From Parabacteroides faecis (GTDB lineage: Bacteria; Bacteroidota; Bacteroidia; Bacteroidales; Tannerellaceae): a DNA stretch of 64,000 nt. The DNA lies in the NCBI RefSeq assembly GCF_014647375.1, contig NZ_BMPB01000012.1, positions 186,001-250,000 of the forward strand, in the 5' to 3' direction. The position numbers and the translations under genes are program-made. Of the stretch, positions 5,751-57,951 are shown piece by piece; position 1 is the stretch's first letter, and each line of letters begins with the position of its first letter. Below the pieces are notes generated by a model, which was not told the DNA's origin, did no database searches, and worked only from the letters and a program-made list of their open reading frames with translations.

Positions 5751-8700
5751 TCTTCTGTCATTACTACACGGAATCCTACATTGTAAACTTTCTGATATTC
5801 ACGGTATGGCAGACGGAAAGACGAGGTCGAGCGGTAAGGACGATCGTACCAGGAACCGCCACGAACAACCCGTTTACCGTTTTCTGAAACGGTTTCGTTT
5901 CGCCCGTCCTTTTCATTGTAAGGATAGGGCTGGTAGGAAGATAAGGTCCATTCCCATACATTTCCGTGCATGTCGAACAGGTCCCAGGGGTTGCGGACGT
6001 AACGCCCTACCGGTTCGGAAATAAATCCTCCGTCATTATAAGTCGTATCGCGTGGAATCCAGTCGTCGTATTTATTCGGATTCTCAATGACCATAGCACT
6101 TTCATAGAATTTGTAGGCGGTACAGGCGGCAAATTCTTTCAGTTTGATATCTCCGAGGTTGGCATAACGGGAGAAATCGGCCGACATGTCACCATACCAG
6201 AAAGGCGTGTCGCTTCCCGCCCGGCAAGCCCATTCCCATTGCGCTTCCGTAGGAAGGGAGAACTTCATACCGGTCTTTTCGGATAACCACTTGCAATAGT
6301 CCATTGCTTCCTGCCAGGAGAGGCGTACGGCAGGCTGATCCGGATGATTCATCGAATAACCTTTCCGTCCGAACTGGTAACCGTGGCGATGTTCGTCGCG
6401 GCTGTCGTGTGCCGGGTTATAAGCTCTGAACTGTGCGTTCGTTATCTCGAAACGTCCCATCCAGAAAGGTTTGTCTATCTGTACGATCGTTTGCGGCAGT
6501 TCGTCCGGGTTCCGGTTGCTTCCCATAATAAAAGAACCGGCCGGTATTTTTACCAGTTCCAAAGTAATGCCGTTACCCAGCGGAATGCTTTTCTGGAAAT
6601 TCCCTAGATTTAGTTGTTTCTGATGGGTTGCTCCCCACTGTGCATATGTTTTTTCTGTCGGGTTGTAGATCGGCCATTTCTCTAGTAAGGTATCGCCTAT
6701 AGCTTTCTGTTCCTTCTCAAACCGGACCGGTTCGATATTCTGTGGAATCTCCGGCAGCCATTCAGCGGTCGACTCCGGTGCACCGAACATTTCGCGGTAT
6801 AGTTCGCGCAATTCATTGCTCTTTTCTGTATCTTCAAATTTCGGAATGTCAGAACGGCGTCCGTGGAAAGGTGCGTTGAAGTCTATCCAGCAGGCCAGCT
6901 TCTCCATAGACTCTTTGTCCAGCTTGACACCGTAATGGCCTTTCTGGAGAATCTGCATCAGTTCGGTCTGATCGGCATGTACGTCCATCGGAACCAGCAT
7001 GTGCATATCGCTCTCGATACCCGGCCGACGCACGTAACGATGCAGGTTGGCATACGAAAGTGTAAAATGTCCGCCGTTCTTCCAGGCTCTTCCCGATATG
7101 TCCGAAGTCCAGTCATCGATCCATTTATCTCCTTTTAGGTATGGTTTTCCGGGTTTGTCCTGATTGTGACAGGAGATGCAATATTTATCCAAAACAGGCT
7201 GTACTTCGTGACGGTAGCTGAATCCTCTCTCTTTCCCGTACCATTCTTTGATGGCCTGCGGTTTTTGCAGGGATGCTTTCGTCCGTTTCGGAATGGCTAT
7301 TGTCGATTTTTCCTCATGGCAACCGATGCAAGAGACTGTTTCGCCCGGCATTCCGGTGAACCAGCTTCTCATGACCTGTAATGCTTTTCCCTCTGCATCC
7401 AGCGGTTGTACGAATACGGCCGTATTGGCGGGGATGGTAAACATGGCCGAGCCGTCTTCTTCGACATCCACTTCACCCAGGATCCGTTTGATGTCCCACG
7501 GTCCGTCCATACCGATGGTGCCCAGCAATCCGCCTTGACCCCACGGGCTGAAGTTGAAAGAACCGATGCGTAGTTTCTTTACTGTACCACGCGGAATACC
7601 TTTTAGTCCTTCACCTTCATAAATGTCTTGCAGGAAAACTGTGGAAGTTGAAGATGCCAGATTGATACGGTCGGGGATTACATTTGGTGATTTACGATTA
7701 TCCATCAATACTGGTTCGAGGTAGGCTACATCTTCCTCTTCGGCAATTAGAGTACGGTTATCGAACGTGTCGACCAGGTAAAGCCCCCACAGGCTTTCCG
7801 GATTTTCCTTCATGGAAACCAGATAGTATGTATCGTTCAATGGATACGGTTGCAGGAACTGCGGCCATATACCGTCGGGTAGGCGGTCGCGAACGACTGC
7901 TTCCACTTTTCTACCGGCATACGGGATTTCGGCAACGACTCCGTCCGCTTCGTGACGCCCTTTATTGGTATCGATAATCAGCATGCGCCCGCTACGTGAA
8001 ACGCTGTGATGACCGGAGGCAATGCCGACCACGGCCGACGGTCGTCCTGGTATGGGGCGGGCATTGAAGAATGAAGTCGGGAAGTAGGAGTTGGAACCAT
8101 AGAAAGCCGATTGCGTGGTACCGTCCGGATTCATGGTAAACAACAGGCGTGAATTGGAATGGGGCAGATCTGCATACTCCCAACGCTGGTAGAGCACGGT
8201 GCCGTTGTCCATCATGACCGGTCCCCAATTGCTGTCCTGGTCGTATGTCAACTGGCGGGTTTGTTTTGTTTTCGGATCATACAGGAATAATCCGCACATT
8301 TTATTTCCTCCATCCGTACAAGGCAATCCCAGGAAGGTTCCTGTCGAACAGAAAATATAACGTCCGTCCGGTGTATAGCAACCGTCGAAACTGTCGAAAT
8401 CTTTATATGTATCCGGGGTTAGTTGATGGGTTTTTCCTGTTGTGATGTCGAGTTCGAACAAATGCCAGCGGTCGGAGGAGCCGATAGAGGAATACATCAG
8501 TTTCTTTCCGTCGAAATAAGGTTCCGGATCGGTAACGATCATTCCCGCTTCCGGTTTGTATAAGGTCGATTGTTTGATTTTGCCGGGATTGATGGTAAGC
8601 GAGACAAACTCGTTGGTCCAACCTGTTTTAGGATTCCATATCTCGGAGTTATTCTGGAAATTGGAGGGGGCGATACCCAGTTCGCCACTCATGGCTTTGC

Positions 8701-27863: not shown

Positions 27864-28403
27864 ATGAAGCAGAAAATTAGTGAGTTCGATAAATGGTATG
27901 AACAATACGTTGATGAGTTGTTCTCGTATGGAATGGCATTCGGTATAGAGAAAGAATATGTGCTGGATGTTATACATGATATTTTTTTGCATTTATACGA
28001 ATCGGCAGATAAAATAGAGATAACGGATAATCCTAAGTTTTATCTGCTTCGCTCTCTGAAAAATAGAATTATATCTTTTAAACAAAAGAGTTCGAACTTG
28101 TTAAGCCTTGACGACAATGTGGATTATGATTTCCAGATAAAGGTGGATGCCCTTGCATTAATGGAAGACGAGGAGGAGAGGCTGGCTTATGAAGAACAAC
28201 TGGAAAGTTTATTCGGTTTATTGACGAATAAACAACGGGAGGTGGTTTATCTGCATTTTATGCAGGAATTGAGTTATCAGGAAATTGCGGAAATACTTCA
28301 TATAACGCCTAAAAGTGTACGCAAAATTATTTATCGCGCATTGGAACGTATGCAGGATGGAGTGGCTCCGCTATGGCTGGTGTTTATTTTTTTGGTAGAA
28401 TAA
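27864..28403 (+). CDS. ECF sigma factor (locus 2)
   Basis: The 179-residue sigma factor has region 2 (about 10-80; WYEQYVDELFSYGMAFG, VIHDIFLHLYESADKIE) and region 4 (about 115-170; LLTNKQREVVYLHFMQELSYQEIAEIL). It lies at the 3' side of susD, convergent with it, which is unusual: its FecR partner is probably the gene at 33729, now on the inverted segment 5 kb away. If so, the sigma gene is fixed while fecR and the start of susC flip. Another fecR could be the partner. Confidence 0.92.
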   Translation: MKQKISEFDKWYEQYVDELFSYGMAFGIEKEYVLDVIHDIFLHLYESADKIEITDNPKFYLLRSLKNRIISFKQKSSNLLSLDDNVDYDFQIKVDALALMEDEEERLAYEEQLESLFGLLTNKQREVVYLHFMQELSYQEIAEILHITPKSVRKIIYRALERMQDGVAPLWLVFIFLVE

Positions 28404-28489: not shown

Positions 28490-30448
28490 TTATTCGTCCC
28501 AGAATGGTGCTTGAACAAGCGTAGGGTCTTTATCTATTTCTTCCTGATAGATAGGATACCAATAGAATTTACGTTCATAAACACGTTTGATGTATTGTTT
28601 GCGAACAAAGAAAGCCTTATCGTTATTTGGATCATCAGATAATTCTGTTCCGCCGAAGTTCATACCATACATCGGCTGGTTTAACACTTCTTCTGCTTTT
28701 TTCCATCTGCGCAGGTCAAAATAGCGGATACCGTTTTCACAGCACAATTCTACACGGCGTTCGTGGTAAATAGCCTGTCTGACTTCTTCCTGTCCGTTTA
28801 AAGTAATTTTGTTGAAACCATTGCTATCGACTCCGGTTCCGTATTGTGGAACACCGGCACGTTCACGAATCAGGTTCAGATATTTTAAAATATCCGGATT
28901 TCCAGGATCTGCCTCATTCAATGCTTCAGCATAGTTCAGGTAAGCTTCGCCTAAACGATAAAGGATTCCCGGACGATATGGGTGAATACCGTCACGTTGA
29001 TTCTGTTCCAACGATACCTTTTTGCGGTTCAGATAACCAGCCTGCGGTGCATCGTGCGTAGGCCCTCCATCCTGTTCATTAGACATCATTTGTACTTCAC
29101 GGTTAGCCTGGTGATACCATTGTCTGTTCCACATAACAGTCAAATAGAAACGAGGCTCGCGGTTTACATACATATTATATGTACCTGCTGCTGCAACCTG
29201 GTTGTAAGTGTTACCGTCTGTACCAAGAGAATCTATTGTTGCTCCCGGGCAGTTACGGTACAGATTGTATTTTGTTTTACGGATATCCGGTTCGTTTGAG
29301 AAACCTCGTTCTGTATAACCGGACTTATCGTTGATAACAGGAGAAGCATAGCTGCCTTTATAGCCGGTGATGGGTAATGATCCGTCCTTCATAGAGAATG
29401 CATCAACTAAGTTTTGGTAAACTCCCAAACCACCGTTGCCGGATGCTCCGCGCGGAGTTGCGTGTTTTTCAAATTCACTATAGTTGCTGTCTGCACGTAT
29501 GAACAATGCTTCCGAATTCTGGTCTCCCCGTAAGAACAATACATTATAGCATGACATGAATGGGTCAATACTTCCGTCTGCATTATATGCATATACCAGT
29601 CCATGGCCGGCAGCATGAGCTGCATCAATCAATTCTTTACAAGCATCCGCGGCACGTTTCCATTTTGTAGCATCATATGTCTGACTGAAACGATCTTTAC
29701 CGTCATAATTTTTAAAACCTTTATACCAATCATTGCCATTGACCAGCGGGCTGGCTGCAAACAATAACATGCGGGCACGAACAGCAAGACACATAATTGA
29801 AGTTGCGCGTCCGTAAAACTGTGTCGATTCGCTTACCCAAGAAGACGGCAATTTTTTAGATAAGTCTATTAACTGTCCGTCGATCCAGTCTACCATTTCG
29901 TCGAAAGGAACTTGGCCACGCATTAAAGTCGGGTCGTTTACATCCGCCAGTCCGTCGAAGAAGGGAATACTACCGTAGGCTTCGAGCGTCATCCAATAAT
30001 AGTAGGCGATCAGAAAACGACATTCATTTTTCATTCTTTCAACCTTTTCTTCCGAAACTCCCTGGTCTGGAAGTGCATGCGCATTTTCAATGAATAAATA
30101 TGCGGAACGGATACGTATCGGGCATGAATTCCAAAGAGCAGCGTCCCAGGACGAATTGGTAAACCATTGTCCGATTACAAAATTCAATGAATTTCCCCAC
30201 CATTGATACCAGCGTTGAGAAGGGTCGAGATCGTCTCCCATAGAGTCATAACCATAATCCCTCAGCAGACCCCAATAAGGATCGGGAATTTTGTTATAAA
30301 CACCGGAAAGCCAGTCTTCTGTTCTGGTTTTATCATTAAATACCATTTCTATCGTCAATGTATCGTCCGGTGCATTGTCTAAATAGTCCGAACAACTATT
30401 GAGAGATAAACCTAAAAATGATAGGCCTATATATTTGAGTAGTTTCAT
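28490..30448 (-). CDS. SusD/RagB-family lipoprotein (locus 2)
   Basis: The 652-residue surface lipoprotein has lipobox LNSCSD with Cys19. SusD features are YLDNAPDDTLTIEMVFND, helices with FLIAYYYWMTLEAYGSIPFF, and the C-terminal YHERRVELCCENGIRYFDLRRW. It is the glycan-binding partner of the SusC encoded 29 bp upstream. Because susC is disconnected from its start in this orientation, susD probably loses its transcript too, unless an internal promoter exists. No glycosidase is adjacent. Confidence 0.95.
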   Translation of the reverse strand: MKLLKYIGLSFLGLSLNSCSDYLDNAPDDTLTIEMVFNDKTRTEDWLSGVYNKIPDPYWGLLRDYGYDSMGDDLDPSQRWYQWWGNSLNFVIGQWFTNSSWDAALWNSCPIRIRSAYLFIENAHALPDQGVSEEKVERMKNECRFLIAYYYWMTLEAYGSIPFFDGLADVNDPTLMRGQVPFDEMVDWIDGQLIDLSKKLPSSWVSESTQFYGRATSIMCLAVRARMLLFAASPLVNGNDWYKGFKNYDGKDRFSQTYDATKWKRAADACKELIDAAHAAGHGLVYAYNADGSIDPFMSCYNVLFLRGDQNSEALFIRADSNYSEFEKHATPRGASGNGGLGVYQNLVDAFSMKDGSLPITGYKGSYASPVINDKSGYTERGFSNEPDIRKTKYNLYRNCPGATIDSLGTDGNTYNQVAAAGTYNMYVNREPRFYLTVMWNRQWYHQANREVQMMSNEQDGGPTHDAPQAGYLNRKKVSLEQNQRDGIHPYRPGILYRLGEAYLNYAEALNEADPGNPDILKYLNLIRERAGVPQYGTGVDSNGFNKITLNGQEEVRQAIYHERRVELCCENGIRYFDLRRWKKAEEVLNQPMYGMNFGGTELSDDPNNDKAFFVRKQYIKRVYERKFYWYPIYQEEIDKDPTLVQAPFWDE

Positions 30449-30477: not shown

Positions 30478-33400
30478 TTAGAAATTAACATCCAATCCGA
30501 AAGAGAAAGATTTCATAATCGGATATTTTGCTCCGTTTGCAGTATCCAATTCCGGATCCCAAAGGTCGAACGCTGAAAATGTCAGAAGGTTAGAGCCTTT
30601 TGCATATACACGGATGTTGGCAAGGCCGATCGAATTGATCCAACGTTTGGGAAGTGTATAACCAATTTCTATATCTTTCATACGGAGCATGCTCATGTTA
30701 CGTAACCACCAGGTTGAATTCTGGCTGTTGTTTGTGTTTGCACCATAGCTCAGACGTGGATAGAAAGCATCCTGTGTTGGATTTTCCTCTGTCCAGCGGT
30801 CGTTATAGTTAGTCAGGATGTTTCCTATAGAACCTTGAGACGAACCTGGTAAGAAATTAGAAGCAACACCTCCGACGAAACGGTAAGTCCGACCATTTCC
30901 CTGGAAGAAGACATTAAAATCTACATTCTTATAGCGTGCTGTAGCTCCGAAACCATAAACAATTTCTGGGTTGACTGTTCCGCCCATTGCTTTTTCGTCT
31001 TTACTTGTGATCGCACCGTCACCATCGACATCGACATATTTGATGTCACCGGGGCGCACTGCGCTGAACGTTTGTGAAGGTATACCTTCTTTCAGTACTA
31101 ATTCTCCTTTATCGTTTGTCGTGAAATCGTCGTCTGTAAATAATCTTTCTGCCACAAGGCCGAAAAGTTCATTGACAGCTCTTCCCGTGCGTTGGCGGTT
31201 TGTACCGATAACACCCATCGCTTCATCCATTTCGATAATCTCGTTGTGTGCGTAAGTGAAAGTTCCTCGGAAACCGATATTCAGGTCTTTATTTATCTGT
31301 TTGTTGTAAGTCAATGAAAGATCCACACCGTTGTTGTTTACCTTTCCGTAGTTGGCCCACGGTGTTTTACGGAAACCGGCGGCAGAAGGAATATTGTTAC
31401 GTTGCATGAAGATATCCCGACGCTGTTCTTTGAACCAGTCTATCTGTAAGTCTAAGGCGTTCCAAAGACCTAACTCTACTCCGACATTCAACTTTTCAAC
31501 AGTTTCCCATGTCAAATCCGTTACACCGAATTCACCTTCAAAACGGGATGAACGGTTGTAATCGTTGTTGACTCCCCATTTATAGGATCCGTCCGTATCG
31601 ATTGTGGGTAAGAAAGCGAATCGGCGTCCGTCTAATTGATCATTACCGGTCAACCCCCATGATGCACGGAACTTGATTTTGGAGAAAGTTTCTTTGAACT
31701 GTTCCATGAATTTTTCTTCTGAGAGCATATAGCCGACAGCTACAGAAGGGAAGAAGCCGAAACGATGTCCTTTCGTAAAGTTTTCCGAACCATTGTAACC
31801 GAAGTTGAATTCGGCGATATACCGGTTGTCAAAAGTATAAGAAGCACGTCCTGCAATACCCATACGGCGGAAAGGAACAACATTACCATCCTGGTAATCG
31901 CGTTGGTTGTAGAGGAACATAGCTCCGACAGTATGTTTTTCATTAAACGTGCGGTCGTAAGTGATATTTCCTTCCAGATAAGTTGCTTTGTTACCCCATG
32001 CAGATTCACTTTTGCTATCCAGAAATTCTTGTCCGTCTGTGCTGACAGTCAGGATCAAGTCACCGGTTTCCGGGTCTCTTCCAGTTGCCGGATTATAGTA
32101 AGTCGGTGTTTTTGAACGTTTAACCCATGAACTGGAATAACGGTCGAAAGAAAAAAGTCCTTTAATCTTTAAACCAGGAGTAATAAATTTTAGGTCTTGT
32201 TCGATAGAAAATAAGGATTCGACTTTTGAATTCGTAGTTGTCTGATAGCCATGTTGTGTGGCTTCCGCCCAAGGGTTATGACGTTCTGTTACACGTACAT
32301 CGCGTCCACCGGAATACTGGATCGGGTGGTAGAAAGGAGGTGTATCGAATGCATAATTCCATATATCCTGACTACTGACTGCCATTCCGTTCTGCTCCTG
32401 TAAATATCCGCCGATACTAATACCGACGACAGTTGTTTTCGTTACATTGATGTCTACATTTGAACGGATGTTGTATTTGTTTAAGCGTGTTGATGAGTCC
32501 CAATTTTTGCTTTTATCGGTCACAAAGATACCACGTTCGCCATAGTAGGATGCAACCAATGCATAGCGGAGAATATCGCTACCACCCGTGATAGTCAAGT
32601 CGCCTCGTGTATTTGAAGCCATGTCTTTAGAAACGGCATCCAGCCAGTTTACGTTAGGATAAAGCTCCGGGTCGACATTGTTGAGGTAGTTATTGATCTT
32701 TTCTTCTCCGTAGAGCGGATTCGGGTTTCCGGCATCCATATATAATTCATCCATCAATGAAAGGTAGTCAGCCGATCCGATATATTTCGGAAGTTGTGTA
32801 GGTTGTGTAAAACCTTGTTCGAGATGGAAATTTACTTTAGGCTTACCTAATTGACCTCTTTTGGTCTTAACGATGATAACACCATTCGCTCCTCGTACAC
32901 CGTAAACGGCACTGGCTGCAGCATCTTTCAATACAGAGAATGATTCGATTTCTGCTGCAGAAAGGTCATCCAGTGTACGTTCTATACCGTCTACCAATAC
33001 CAGCGGTTGTATACCTGTTCCTTTGAAAGAAGAAATACCACGAATCCAGAATTCGGAACCGTCAGACCCTGGTTCACCGCTACGTTGTACAGCGATCACA
33101 CCGGCAAGTTGGCCTGCCAAATTGTTGGAGACAGCGCGGGTCGTTCCTTGTTGTAACTGGCTTGGTTCGATCGTAGTAATAGATCCTACTACAGATACTT
33201 TTTTCTGGGAACCATAACCTACAACAACTACTTCATCCAGGTTATTTGACTCTTCAGACATATTCACATTGATATTGATCTGGTCTCCAACTTTGATTTC
33301 CTGCGCTTCGAAACCGATGTAACTGAAGACAAGTACAACATTTTTATCCGGAACATTAATGAAGTAATTACCATTAATATCGGTAGTTGTACCCGTTGTA

Positions 33401-33634
33401 GTTCCTTTTATAAGGACGTTGACACCAGGGAGTGGAATTTGTTGAGCATCTCTTACTGTTCCGTTGATAGAGATACTTTTTTGTTGTTGTGTTTCTCCCT
33501 TTCGTATAATCATCACCTGTCTGTCGTTGAGAACATAGGTCAGTCCTGTGTTCTTCAGAATTTCAGATAAGATTTGGTCAATTGTTTGAGATTGGATATT
33601 AATGCTTACATTTTTACTTAGTTCTAGACGAACT
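30478..33634 (-). CDS. SusC/RagA transporter body without its 5' end (locus 2, OFF state)
   Basis: The open frame reaches back to 33666 but has no ATG near the true start; the first usable codon is GTG at 33516, which would give 1012 residues without a signal peptide. Upstream of it the frame encodes the second half of an STN domain (VRLELSKNVSINIQ, then NTGLTYVLNDRQVMI), which shows that coding continues to the 19-bp repeat. After it come the carboxypeptidase-D-like domain (GTVRDAQQIPLPGVNVLIKG), plug (LDEVVVVGYGSQKKVSV) and barrel ending FSFGLDVNF. There is no decay: no internal stop or frameshift. The missing half is at 35069-35290 on the other strand, and inversion at the shared repeats would give a 1119-residue protein. 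As sequenced, no exported product should be made. Confidence 0.93.
33616..33634 (-). repeat. Left crossover repeat of the SusC switch
   Basis: Read on the minus strand this is AGTTCGTCTAGAACTAAGT, identical over 19 bp to 35272-35290 on the plus strand. Identity stops immediately on both sides. It contains arms AGTTC and GAACT around the core GTCTA, and it encodes VRLELS inside the STN domain, in the same frame as the right copy. Confidence 0.93.
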
Positions 33635-33728
33635 AATTCAAGGGGAGGATGTATTATTAACCCTAATTAACAAATAAAATGGGGTCAAATCAGAGTGTTT
33701 TTTGTCTTATTCAAAATTGATAATAAAA

Positions 33729-34955
33729 ATGAATAAAAAACAACATATAAAAACGATTGATCAGTTAATACATGACGATGCTTTTATTCTTTGGTGCCTG
33801 TTTCCTACGGAAAAGCTGGAACAGGTGTGGATTGATGATTATCTTACACTTTATCCGGAAGAAAGAGAAAATATAGAAAAGGCTAAGCAAATGGTTCGTT
33901 TACTAAAATTGAATAATAGTAAGCTATCATCCTTTGAAAAAGACTCTCTCAAAAAGAACATTACCAGAGATTTGGAAAAACGCAGAAAATCAAGGCAAAT
34001 CCGTTTGATATGGCAATATGCAGCAGCTTGCATTCTTATTGTATGTACATTAGGTTCATTATATCTGATCAATAAAGAAAATGTGTTTCAAGGAGGAGAG
34101 GCTCTTTCCCTGGTAGACGAGATCCAGTTGGATACTGATCAAACAGAGGTAGAGCTCCATTTGGCAGAAGAAAAAATGGAAGTTGCGGATAATGCTACTA
34201 TTCTAGTTGATCAACAAGGGAAAATCAAGGTTGCAGATAAAAGTAATAAAAATGTGGAGGCTGTAGACTGCGAAAGTTATGCGGAAAACAGGGAGGAAAA
34301 GAAAATTCGTATGAATCTGTTGAGCGTACCTAAAGGACGTCATTCTTCATTGATTTTACCGGATGGCACGAAAGTCTGGGTAAATTCTGGTACGGTAGTT
34401 CAATTCCCTGAAATCTTTGAAAAAGAGAAAAGAATGATTTATGTGGAAGGAGAAGTTTACCTGGAAGTCACCAAAGACGAATCTCGTCCATTTTATGTCA
34501 AAACGAATCAAATGGAGGTTAAAGTTTTGGGAACATCATTTTGTGTTGTAGCATATAATGATGAAAATTATCAGTCCGTCATACTAAAAGAAGGAAGTGT
34601 CGCCGTCGAAGGAAACAAAGGTGGAAAACAAGTCATAAAACCGAACGATCTTTTAGTTCTTGAAAACGATCAAATATCTGTTAGACAGGTGAATGTGTAC
34701 GATTATATTTCATGGATAGATGGTATCCTTCAATTTAATGAGAAAAACTTGGGTGAGGTATTACGTAGTATTTCACGTTATTATCGCGTTCAATTCAGTT
34801 ATTCTTCCGATATAGAACAGATAAAATGTTCAGGGAAGTTGGTCTTGTTTGATAATATGGATCAAGTGCTTCAAACACTTCAGAAAACATTATCAATTTC
34901 ATTCCATCGCAAAGATAATTTAATAGAAGTAAATAGTATTAATAATCAAAAATAA
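33729..34955 (+). CDS. FecR-family anti-sigma factor on the invertible segment (locus 2)
   Basis: The 408-residue inner-membrane regulator starts at the ATG at 33729; the frame is open from a TTG at 33702, but MNKKQ is the natural start. It has a cytoplasmic N-terminal part (about 1-95), one membrane helix (about 98-118; YAAACILIVCTLGSLYLI) and a periplasmic FecR domain (LPDGTKVWVNSGTVVQFP, VEGEVYLEVTKDESRPFYV, VKVLGTSFCVVAYND). It is 60-80 residues longer than the other two FecR proteins here, because of an acidic linker (about 120-200) between the membrane and the FecR domain. In this orientation it reads away from the SusC body; after inversion it lies 113 bp upstream of susC on the same strand. 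Confidence 0.93.
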   Translation: MNKKQHIKTIDQLIHDDAFILWCLFPTEKLEQVWIDDYLTLYPEERENIEKAKQMVRLLKLNNSKLSSFEKDSLKKNITRDLEKRRKSRQIRLIWQYAAACILIVCTLGSLYLINKENVFQGGEALSLVDEIQLDTDQTEVELHLAEEKMEVADNATILVDQQGKIKVADKSNKNVEAVDCESYAENREEKKIRMNLLSVPKGRHSSLILPDGTKVWVNSGTVVQFPEIFEKEKRMIYVEGEVYLEVTKDESRPFYVKTNQMEVKVLGTSFCVVAYNDENYQSVILKEGSVAVEGNKGGKQVIKPNDLLVLENDQISVRQVNVYDYISWIDGILQFNEKNLGEVLRSISRYYRVQFSYSSDIEQIKCSGKLVLFDNMDQVLQTLQKTLSISFHRKDNLIEVNSINNQK

Positions 34956-35068
34956 GTGCCTATGAATAGATAAAACATGTCGTAATTTAGTATTGTATCA
35001 AAACAATAGACCATTGTGTTGTTAACAAGTGAAATTTTAATATCAAGGAAAAAAATTATTATATTATT

Positions 35069-35293
35069 ATGGAATATCTAAAAATTAAAAGAAAAATACA
35101 CGCCGTTTGTGTGATGTTGTGTTTGCTTTTTACTGTGAATTCATCTCTTTTAGCGGAGTTGTCCTATGCACAAGCTACACGTTTGTCTTTGGAGTTGTCA
35201 AATGTAGCTATCAGTGATGTTTTCGCGTCTGTAGAGAAAAATAGTGAGTACGTATTTTTTTATTCTGACGGAGTTCGTCTAGAACTAAGTTAA
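35069..35293 (+). CDS. Displaced 5' end of susC: signal peptide and half STN domain
   Basis: The 74-residue frame starts at the ATG at 35069 and ends at TAA 35291-35293, immediately after the 19-bp repeat. It has a signal peptide (about 1-34, ending LAELSYAQA) followed by the first half of an STN domain (TRLSLELSNVAISDVFASVE, then YVFFYSDGVRLELS). The last six codons, VRLELS, lie in the repeat and are the same codons in the same frame as in the SusC body at 33616-33634. Alone it would make a short exported peptide with no known activity. It is not an independent gene but the missing start of the locus 2 transporter. Confidence 0.92.
   Translation: MEYLKIKRKIHAVCVMLCLLFTVNSSLLAELSYAQATRLSLELSNVAISDVFASVEKNSEYVFFYSDGVRLELS
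35272..35290 (+). repeat. Right crossover repeat of the SusC switch
   Basis: AGTTCGTCTAGAACTAAGT on the plus strand is the inverted partner of 33616-33634. The next base already differs (T here, A in the partner), and that change creates the stop codon TAA at 35291, which ends the displaced susC fragment. Confidence 0.93.
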
Positions 35294-35433
35294 TTTTGAA
35301 ATTCTATACTAATTGATTGTATGGGTTGAAAAATAAGAGATTGGTTGAATGAGGCTTGTTTTTCAGTCATCTTGTGTTTGTTTTATTTCTCAATAAAAAT
35401 ATTAGTTAATAACTGGTGCTATATCATCAATTC

Positions 35434-36837
35434 TCATTTAAAACCTTTTAACGGTCGCGGTTGTGAGATCCTTAGACAACTGACTATTGCAGCTACAATT
35501 GCAAAACCTGTAGCTAAATATAAACATGCTTGCGTACTATTATTTGGAACCAGATTGAATATCATGGCGACCAATGTGGCACCCAGAGTCTGCCCCAGTA
35601 AACGGGCTGTTCCCAACATACCACTGGCTCCGCCGCTCCGGTTGGATGGGGCGGATGAGATAATGGTACTGTTGTTTGGGGTCTGGAAAAGTCCGAACCC
35701 AGCTCCACAGATAAACAGACGCCATACTATATCCATATCTGTCGGATTTTCAGGTAGAATGGCTAGTAAAAAAAGACCTGCTGCGAATATCGTCATGCCA
35801 ATGCCACCCAATATGCCCGCATGAATCCGTTCCACCAAGCGTCCGGCAAGGGGAGCCATGATCATGGTAGCCAGCGGCCAGGGAGTCAGGAGCAATCCTG
35901 TTGTCACATCACTGCGTCCCAACGAGCCTTGCAGAAAAAAGGGGAGGGATATCATTGCCAGCATCTGTCCGGTGAAGGAACAGATCGATGTGCCGATCGA
36001 CATGGAGAAGATCGGAATACGCATCAGGTCGACCGGAAGTAACGGAAACTGCTGATGCAATTGACGGCGTACGAAGAAATAACCGATCACGAACAAAGCA
36101 AGGACTCCGGCTATGATCAATGTTGTGCTCTCTTTGTGAGCAATACCTTCTAACGAGAAAATAAGCAGGCCGAAGGTGACCGCGTTCATCAGGCAACTGA
36201 GTTTGTCGAAACGGCGTCCGGTTACTTTCACCGGATTGTCAGGCAGATGCATCAGTCCGATAATGAGTGCGGCGATTCCGATCGGAATATTAATGGCAAA
36301 AAGCCAATGCCATGAACCCAGCGAGAGAATGATTGAAGCGATCGTTGGTCCGGCTGCAATCGAGACGGCAACAACGAGGGCATTGATCCCCATGCCACGA
36401 CCGAGGAAACGTTTTGGATAAATGATCCGGAGCAGTGCTGTATTCACGCTTGTGATGGCTGCTGCCCCGAATCCCTGTAAGATACGGGCGGCTGTCAGCA
36501 TCCAGAACGAATCGGCGAGGGCGCAGATGGCAGACGTGATGCTGAACAGGACGATCCCTGATAAGTAAATCTTCCGGTAACCGTAAATATCTCCCAATGA
36601 AGAGAAGGAGAGAAGCGAAATGGTGATCGCCAGCTGATAAGCATTGACCACCCAGATCGTTACGGACGGTGAAGTTCCCAGGTCGCGGGCTATTGTCGGT
36701 AAAGCCACATTGGCGATGGTACCGTCTATCACTGACATTCCAACGCCCAAGGCTGTGGCTAATATGGCCCAGTAACGCTTGGGTAACGGTAATCCGTCGT
36801 TCTCATTTACAGTTATGGCGTGATTTTGTAATATCAT
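35434..36837 (-). CDS. MFS drug/proton antiporter, DHA2 family
   Basis: The 467-residue integral membrane protein has many hydrophobic helices, consistent with the 14-helix DHA2 (EmrB/QacA) group. The family motif VIDGTIANVALPTIARDLG lies in helix 1, and GSLGDIYGYRKIYLSGIV-like motif A follows between helices 2 and 3. It probably exports toxic compounds using the proton gradient; the substrate is unknown. It ends 140 bp from the SusC switch and is convergent with the displaced fragment. It is 10 bp downstream of the metallopeptidase gene, so the two are likely co-transcribed. Confidence 0.92.
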   Translation of the reverse strand: MILQNHAITVNENDGLPLPKRYWAILATALGVGMSVIDGTIANVALPTIARDLGTSPSVTIWVVNAYQLAITISLLSFSSLGDIYGYRKIYLSGIVLFSITSAICALADSFWMLTAARILQGFGAAAITSVNTALLRIIYPKRFLGRGMGINALVVAVSIAAGPTIASIILSLGSWHWLFAINIPIGIAALIIGLMHLPDNPVKVTGRRFDKLSCLMNAVTFGLLIFSLEGIAHKESTTLIIAGVLALFVIGYFFVRRQLHQQFPLLPVDLMRIPIFSMSIGTSICSFTGQMLAMISLPFFLQGSLGRSDVTTGLLLTPWPLATMIMAPLAGRLVERIHAGILGGIGMTIFAAGLFLLAILPENPTDMDIVWRLFICGAGFGLFQTPNNSTIISSAPSNRSGGASGMLGTARLLGQTLGATLVAMIFNLVPNNSTQACLYLATGFAIVAAIVSCLRISQPRPLKGFK

Positions 36838-56914: not shown

Positions 56915-57457
56915 ATGAAATATAGGAATTACCGGAGTTATATATTGATTGGTTTGTTGTTTCTTTTTCTGGAGGGATGTATTTCCAAACCGCTTTCCTG
57001 GAAAGATGAGTTGCATAAGGATATTTTTTTATTGGGACATCGTAACTGGATTGTTGTAACTGATATGGCTTATCCGTTGCAAAGCCAGGAAGGTATTAAA
57101 ACATTTTATACAGGAGAAGATTATCAGGATATATTGTCGTATGTTATGTCTGAAATAAATCAGACACCGCATATCAAGGCTACTATATATCAGGATCGGG
57201 AATTGATGTTTATGGAAGAACCGGATGCGCCCGGTGTGACGGAACTCCGGTTGCGTGCAGGGGATTTATTGGGTGATCGGTTGCAATATATACCTCATGA
57301 ACAGTTAATTTCCCGTTTGGATAGTGTAAGCCGTATTTTTAATGTGATCATATTGAAAAGTAATTTGACAATACCTTATACATCCACTTTTTTTGAGTTG
57401 GATTGCCGGTATTGGGATAATATCCGGCAGAAGGAATTGGAGAAGCGCATTCAATAA
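56915..57457 (+). CDS. RbsD/FucU-like lipoprotein
   Basis: The 180-residue protein has a lipobox LEGCIS with Cys22, so it should be anchored in the envelope. The mature part begins WKDELHKDIFLLGHRNWIVVTDMAYPLQ, which resembles the start of ribose pyranase RbsD and fucose mutarotase FucU (a Gly-His followed by an Asp, then a Pro-rich turn). These enzymes are normally cytoplasmic; an exported version would interconvert sugar anomers outside the inner membrane. It is 11 bp downstream of GH172, so it may process the released sugar. The assignment rests on motif resemblance. Confidence 0.6.
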   Translation: MKYRNYRSYILIGLLFLFLEGCISKPLSWKDELHKDIFLLGHRNWIVVTDMAYPLQSQEGIKTFYTGEDYQDILSYVMSEINQTPHIKATIYQDRELMFMEEPDAPGVTELRLRAGDLLGDRLQYIPHEQLISRLDSVSRIFNVIILKSNLTIPYTSTFFELDCRYWDNIRQKELEKRIQ

Positions 57458-57469
57458 GGTTGTGAAGAG

Positions 57470-57506
57470 TCCTCCGGAATGGATCCGGAGGATTTTCTTT
57501 TTTATT
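57470..57506 (+). terminator. Intrinsic terminator of locus 3
   Basis: TCCTCCGGA (57470-57478) pairs with TCCGGAGGA (57484-57492) around ATGGA, followed by TTTTCTTTTTTATT. Confidence 0.92.
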
Positions 57507-57951
57507 CTATCAGTTGTCCTTCCGAATCGAAGGTGAGTTTTACCTCATTATTATCCATTTTCAGTTCAAAAGTGTAGAACATACCTGCCGGTTTTTCTAT
57601 CGCATCCACTTCCAACACTTTATATTGATTATAAGCGGAGCTGGCCAGTTCATCCATGACGGCAACAGGTACATCTTCCGGACGGGTATCCCATTTAGTA
57701 CTGATCCATTCGTTCTTATCATTGAATAAAACCTCTTTGTCAAGATCCTTGTCTTTTATATCGACTTCTGTACCATTCTTTTCCTTGTCAAATTTCAGGA
57801 CTGTTGCCTGCGGATATTTTGTAGAGATAAAGTTTTGGAGAGCCTGCGGGATTTCGACGGTTTTATTTACTTTTTTCTGGTGGTCGTTGCAACTGATAAA
57901 TACTGAGATACAACATACGAGAATAGCTAAAACAGATAGTTTTTCTTTCAT
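57502..57951 (-). CDS. PepSY-like lipoprotein
   Basis: The 149-residue lipoprotein (lipobox FISCND, Cys21) has one PepSY-like domain (DUF2874-type). Its sequence, IPQALQNFISTKYPQATVLKFD, then EWISTKWD and IEKPAGMFYTFEL, closely matches the second domain of the neighbouring gene at 58074 (IPQAITDAINEMY, EWVSTEWD, IEKPAGTFYLFEL). It arose by duplication of that domain or is its source. It lies beyond a terminator (57984-58019), so it probably has its own promoter. Bacteroidetes PepSY-like proteins next to two-component systems are thought to sense or buffer envelope signals; the function is unknown. Confidence 0.8.
   Translation of the reverse strand: MKEKLSVLAILVCCISVFISCNDHQKKVNKTVEIPQALQNFISTKYPQATVLKFDKEKNGTEVDIKDKDLDKEVLFNDKNEWISTKWDTRPEDVPVAVMDELASSAYNQYKVLEVDAIEKPAGMFYTFELKMDNNEVKLTFDSEGQLIE

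Follow-up and report, generated by a model that had tools for sequence, protein, structure and literature searches.

The stretch of DNA analysed here (the window, 64,000 nucleotides, G000:C12:186001-250000) belongs to the 6.66-Mb genome of Parabacteroides faecis, which is assembled in 33 contigs, and it contains a SusC/SusD system of which the susC gene is found in two parts. The larger part, the SusC body, lies on the minus strand at 30478..33633 and encodes the remainder of an STN domain, a CarbopepD_reg_2 domain, the plug and the rest of a SusC/RagA family protein, in a frame that is open from the left repeat of the cassette described below to the susC stop and that has no N-terminus in the sequenced orientation. 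Downstream of it is the gene of a 652-aa SusD partner (28490..30448, minus strand), and convergent with susD is the gene of a 179-aa ECF sigma factor with sigma-70 domains (27864..28403, plus strand). On the other side of the body, on the plus strand, fecR (33729..34955) encodes a FecR-type anti-sigma regulator of 408 aa with FecR and FecR_C domains (Pfam), and it is followed by a 74-aa SusC head (35069..35293) that comprises a putative signal peptide, recognized by eye, and the start of the STN domain. An MFS transporter gene (35434..36837, minus strand) lies beyond this and outside the operon. The first-pass annotation had called the system a SusC glycan transporter; the SusC/SusD pair is clear, and the label glycan goes beyond what the sequence shows.

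The SusC head alone gives no match in Pfam. In an intact relative, the metagenome-assembled locus L019, Pfam places the whole STN domain at residues 64-115; the N-terminus of the joined window protein was compared by eye with those of L019 and of a second relative (L051), the Pfam evidence coming from the body and from L019. With the STN remainder in the body, the whole STN in L019, the FecR and FecR_C domains and the sigma-70 domains, the locus resembles FecI-FecR-FecA signalling, to which it is similar in having an ECF sigma factor, FecR and an STN-bearing receptor. It differs in that the sigma gene is situated at the distal end of the operon, whereas receptor and anti-sigma gene lie on a piece that appears to be switchable.

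This piece is the putative invertible cassette (33616..35290), which contains a promoter motif, fecR and the SusC head, and which is bounded by two 19-bp inverted copies that carry no mismatch, at 33616-33634 (left site, minus strand) and 35272-35290 (right site, plus strand). The coding sequence of the SusC body begins in the left site, where the 15-bp core AGTTC-N5-GAACT occupies 33620-33634, and the right site provides the final codons of the head (VRLELS). Both sites have the spacer GTCTA, and the pair thus belongs to the AGTTC inverton family discussed below. By a uniform-base estimate, 0.007 perfect 19-bp inverted pairs are expected in the whole window, and for the 15-bp core the expectation is 0.07, with four copies actually present. 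Besides the 19-bp pair no other perfect inverted repeat of at least 12 bp was found in 33000-36000, and in a search of the whole genome the 19-mer had no further exact copy. Coordinates, strands, frames and the perfect identity of the copies are all as the first-pass annotation had described them.

Upon inversion of the cassette in silico, head and body are joined into a single uninterrupted frame of 1119 residues, which runs to the stop codon of susC and has a joint that reads FFYSDGVRLELSKNVSINIQSQ. An in-frame break in the rejoined gene, proposed earlier as an observation that would speak against switching, was not found, and the predicted restoration of a 1119-residue SusC is confirmed in silico. 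The split point lies after residue 74 of 1119, so that the coding sequence is not left whole, in contrast to what happens with invertible promoters: the window repeat is inside coding sequence, and a complete gene is contained in the segment. The head does stop at once outside the repeat, with a TAA at 35291-35293. It was also claimed that the body has no ATG; in fact an in-frame ATG is present at 33513, but the resulting 1011-aa product would lack the N-terminus and the STN domain. Similarly, the STN domain is divided as proposed, but to state that half of it is missing from the body is too much, since the body keeps positions 13-52 of the 52 positions of the Pfam profile, leaving 12 to the head.

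Within the cassette and upstream of fecR, a motif GGGGNCA-N16-GTCTT is found at 33681..33708 (plus strand). The two elements, with exactly 16 bases in between, are common to the window and to the related loci L019, L051, L052 and L059, and the motif was derived from these same five loci. A scan of the collected loci with a spacing of 15-17 gave further matches only in front of the fecR homologs (41%) of G081 and G082, copies that are identical to each other, and the motif is absent at the more distant fecR loci L053, L054 and L061. There is one exact match in the 6.66-Mb genome; a reversed control pattern also has one match, so that uniqueness of the motif by itself proves little. The motif looks like a promoter of the ECF sigma type, and we infer that it serves the neighbouring sigma factor. 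If it is indeed a promoter, the cassette brings its own promoter along, and fecR would be expressed in both orientations, susC and susD in the ON orientation only.

Related operons were looked for at the DNA level in 39 genomes of the genus (this genome included) and in a named genome collection, in which one close and one distant relative of fecR turned up; a search of plasmid records gave no match. Head and body are contiguous in all five related operons, which are found in G013 (L051), G053 (L052), G011 (L059), G044 (L060) and the metagenome-assembled L019, with SusC body identities to the window of 89% (L019), 88% (L051), 81% (L059), 80% (L052) and 79% (L060). The comparison with related genomes that had been recommended as a check thus yields the opposite, contiguous arrangement in each of them, whereas the orientation in P. 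faecis is known from one assembly, which has the OFF arrangement. The sigma gene is convergent after susD in the window, L019 and L051 and lies upstream of fecR in L052 and L059. L019, L051, L052, L059, L053 and L054 have no inverted pair comparable to the one in the window; L060, on a short contig that begins inside fecR, does not include the region that would hold a second site and is therefore outside this comparison. Since the testable contiguous relatives have no repeat pair, they show in which order the genes lay ancestrally and are no evidence of switching.

The origin of the sites can be followed to some extent. The susC gene of L019 has the complete 15-bp core, with both AGTTC and GAACT, and differs from the window in only three spacer bases; at these three positions the susC copy of the window agrees with its partner site. 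L051, L052, L053, L054, L059, L060 and L061 do not have the core. With the core present in susC of L019 and the pair missing from the testable relatives, the contiguous susC is most simply taken as ancestral and the core site in susC as older than the switch. In the lineage of the window, the second site, upstream of fecR, and the agreement of the two spacers would most simply have been added; that they were kept from an ancestor is a less simple account. So far, the switch is private to this genome among the testable relatives.

Pairwise dN/dS values between the window and L019 are low throughout, with 0.036 for the body, 0.036 for SusD, 0.084 for sigma, 0.098 for fecR and 0.148 for the head; in this comparison synonymous changes approach saturation, and a loss of recent date would escape notice. 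Head and fecR are by this measure under weaker constraint than the body. More distant SusC bodies, of 67-78% identity, occur in G047 (L053), elsewhere in the same genome (G000:C16, L054), G021 (L061), G014 (L062) and G006 (L063); in all five loci the head is different or unmatched and fecR distant or unmatched, which suggests that bodies and signalling heads have been exchanged over longer times. In L053, L054 and L061 the identity of the distant fecR is 33-42%. The fecR gene of L051 is broken by an insertion at approximately 6309-7630 with a 387-aa ORF that is transposase-like by eye.

The core of the sites, palindromic arms about a 5-bp spacer, is abundant in this genome, with 66 copies against 1 for the reversed control pattern. 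Similar enrichment was found in G019 (54/2), G022 (46/2) and G024 (45/2), intermediate values occur in, e.g., G021 (25/7), G013 (24/7) and G004 (21/2), and many other congeners are at or under the control. Invertible promoters of Bacteroidales have sites of the same family as the window pair, and the repeats of the Tsr0667 shufflons presumably share the AGTTC-N5-GAACT core as well. Inverted pairs with identical spacers were seen at 31 of the 33 site loci read in this genome, the window included, a figure that applies to loci chosen where pairs were visible or likely (56 of the 66 exact core sites lie in them) and is not a rate over all 66 sites. Among the matches listed, seven of the ten sites outside these loci appear singly (C1:563798, C1:756951, C2:205408, C4:7792, C5:152607, C6:72476 and C11:55137). 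With a span of 1652 bp the window pair is the longest of the 31, the remaining spans being 141-592 bp, and most other examined pairs are short and intergenic.

To recognize coding inversions, an ORF test based on ATG ORFs of at least 80 aa was used, which did not flag the window pair, and a second test in which every pair was inverted in silico and an ORF had to cross the site by 30 codons on both sides. ORFs crossing a site after inversion were obtained for the window, L165, L158, L162 and L179. L158 was set aside as it merely lengthens the front of a sigma gene, L162 because the ORF is only 71 aa, and L179 because its ORFs are not gene-like by eye. This leaves two pairs that are clearly coding, that of the window and C10:57039/57595 (57039-57609; L184 16940-17510). 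The latter has a FecR start of about 68 residues between its sites. As sequenced, this FecR head is on the right body, giving a protein of 314 aa, and a 1119-aa susC and a susD-like gene come after it; after inversion in silico it is on the left body, again giving 314 aa, with another susC and another susD-like gene next on that side (susC and susD names were assigned by eye at this locus). Two intact FecR outcomes of equal length speak for the use of both orientations, and the pair suggests that in this genome AGTTC sites are employed for coding inversions of FecR/SusC systems. In G023 (L241 2565-3186) and G047 (L251 3541-4240), alternators of SusC heads were found that have an AGTTC site at susC codon 67, where inversion would hand the head to the other body with products of 1048 and 1026 aa.

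Which enzyme would act on these sites can be approached by comparison across the genus. The genome has 22 places above the PF00589 cut-off, and on contig C12 the nearest (C12:150482) is about 69 kb away from the cassette, with none closer. Two of the recombinases were tested across the genus, of which C3:454683 fits better than C7:55143. The latter was rejected as a master recombinase since orthologs of at least 65% occur only in G004, G021 and G016, and none in the site-rich G019, G022 and G024. The recombinases at C1:630948, C7:71973, C3:184823 and C11:177356 were not considered further, as the inverted repeats that adjoin them are different ones, and NCBIfam did not separate ten of the recombinases. 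The candidate invertase of the AGTTC sites is a 405-aa tyrosine recombinase (G000:C3:454683-455897, L100) that has one match in this genome, adjoins a rarA-like gene and other genes that by eye are housekeeping-like, and has orthologs of 89-92% in G019, G022 and G024. Site enrichment is higher in genomes with a near-full-length ortholog (19 versus 20 genomes, Mann-Whitney p 0.010, uncorrected for kinship, with the ortholog copies of G012 and G050, which contain stops, counted as present). The link is correlative and noisy: G004 (21/2) and G044 (11/2, 80% complete) have sites and no ortholog at the cut-off, and G016 (14/23) and G017 (9/25) have the ortholog without net enrichment.

At 6 of the 18 near-full-length ortholog loci, a same-spacer AGTTC pair is situated 4.4-5.4 kb from the ortholog (G016, G017, G042, G012, G023 and G047). 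These six pairs have four different spacers and lie at divergent susC genes, a site being at susC codon 67 in G023 and G047 and the pair being between the susC genes in G016, G017, G042 and G012. No same-spacer pair was seen near the ortholog in the other 12 loci, among which the contigs of G007 and G048 are short. In the P. faecis genome the contig ends about 4.7 kb past the candidate gene on the susC side.

From the sites, the reading frames, the position of the motif and the gene order in relatives, all of which are seen in the sequence, we infer that the cassette is inverted and that this recurs, i.e. that the locus is a reversible ON/OFF coding switch sequenced in its OFF state. We assign a probability of about 0.8 to this explanation as a whole, the trans-acting recombinase included. 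The phase-variable inversion and OFF state put forward by the first-pass annotation are in this way supported by contiguous relatives, the unbroken joined frame, the genome-wide sites, the second coding inverton and the conserved promoter motif within the cassette. The enzyme would be a tyrosine recombinase working in trans, most probably the 405-aa protein of C3:454683-455897; it would act on the two inverted AGTTC-GTCTA-GAACT sites, and recombination at both would flip the 1.7-kb cassette. In the ON state, the whole cassette, with its ECF-like promoter, its fecR and the SusC head, would face the SusC body, and a single transcript would cover fecR, a SusC of 1119 aa whose STN signalling domain is intact, and SusD. 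In the OFF state, the promoter would still be joined to fecR, and transcription would enter the head, meet the stop codon and continue antisense to the MFS gene, leaving SusC without its N-terminus and susD without a promoter. The sigma gene would remain outside the flipping cassette.

A recombinase may also have inverted the segment just once, leaving an operon that is stuck OFF and bound to decay. Such a history would agree with the absence of the repeat pair from every testable relative, with OFF being the sole arrangement seen, with the faster evolution of head and fecR as compared to the body, and with the state of the same operon in G013, which looks disabled in another way, by the insertion in fecR. 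However, the sites are identical over 19 bp, spacer included, like other pairs of the genome, the spacer of the susC copy has changed relative to L019 to that of its partner, and every reading frame is open, and we therefore consider a single inversion unlikely. That the head works, or once worked, with another SusC body in the manner of SusC shufflons is brought to mind by the alternators with the same sites (the FecR head in this genome, the SusC heads in G023 and G047), but there is an MFS gene instead of a second body by the right site and the genome has no third exact 19-mer, which makes a larger alternator quite improbable. Misassembly can occur at inverted repeats, and the arrangement might in principle have arisen during assembly or binning; since 19 bp is shorter than the usual read length, the locus is on a 265-kb contig and the break falls exactly at a member of the site family, we regard this as very improbable indeed.

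SusC inversions in Bacteroides are known, and the reversible switch proposed for the window is an ON/OFF variant with unusual cargo. According to the accessible text of the reports, Tsr0667 shuffles SusC/SusD genes in Bacteroides fragilis, with one invertase, dispersed sites and an inversion that decides which SusC is made (PMC4747536, PMC11852207), as would be the case here. As far as these accounts go, the shufflons exchange alternative SusC/SusD genes, whereas in the window there is one body, with the MFS gene opposite, which would be switched ON or OFF while promoter and fecR move along. Region EE of B. fragilis NCTC 9343, in the account available, is a region downstream of an invertible promoter to which genes are brought; in the window it is the promoter motif that would move, together with anti-sigma gene and receptor head. 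Intragenic, gene-altering inversions are named as a class of programmed inversions in the accessible parts of several papers (PMC12632263, PMC10939037, PMC11892184), and for gut Bacteroidales these parts speak of intragenic inversions and of invertible regions within or close to SusC/SusD systems (PMC10939037, PMC12632263); the likeness to the window is that the flip would alter a protein. In the literature consulted, to the extent of its accessible text, SusC phase variation has so far consisted of promoter flipping or exchange of alternative genes, and in the open-licence literature that was searched no FecR-SusC cassette turned up. What is distinct here is the ON/OFF state of a single body, the cut within the STN signalling domain, and the carriage of a promoter motif and an anti-sigma gene.

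A flip would cut inside the signalling domain with promoter and anti-sigma gene moving together, and thus transport and sensing would be lost in one event. If true, surface signalling itself, beyond the choice of a transporter, is phase-variable by coding inversion. We consider it an even chance that the full picture holds, in which the inverton carries the only recognisable promoter of the sigma factor, the anti-sigma gene and the signalling head of the receptor, a flip leaves the anti-sigma factor without its receptor and the transporter without its start, and the inverton is one of at least 31 that are probably run by one chromosomal recombinase, another one moving an anti-sigma head between two nutrient-uptake operons. 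With sites throughout the genome and one candidate recombinase, a regulon of linked switches becomes testable by deletion of one gene.

Two minor observations concern other invertons. Four recombinases of 305-322 aa (L112, L113, L114 and L115) each adjoin an inverted repeat of 21-26 bp, the repeat ACCTTATTTATATAATAAGGG being common to three of them, and these recombinases with their repeats are a separate class of invertons. The window itself has a second AGTTC pair, at 70-84 and 475-489, with the spacer GTTAA and a distance of 405 bp, which lies upstream of genes for a TolC-like protein, a sigma-54 response regulator and a histidine kinase and is likely an invertible promoter.
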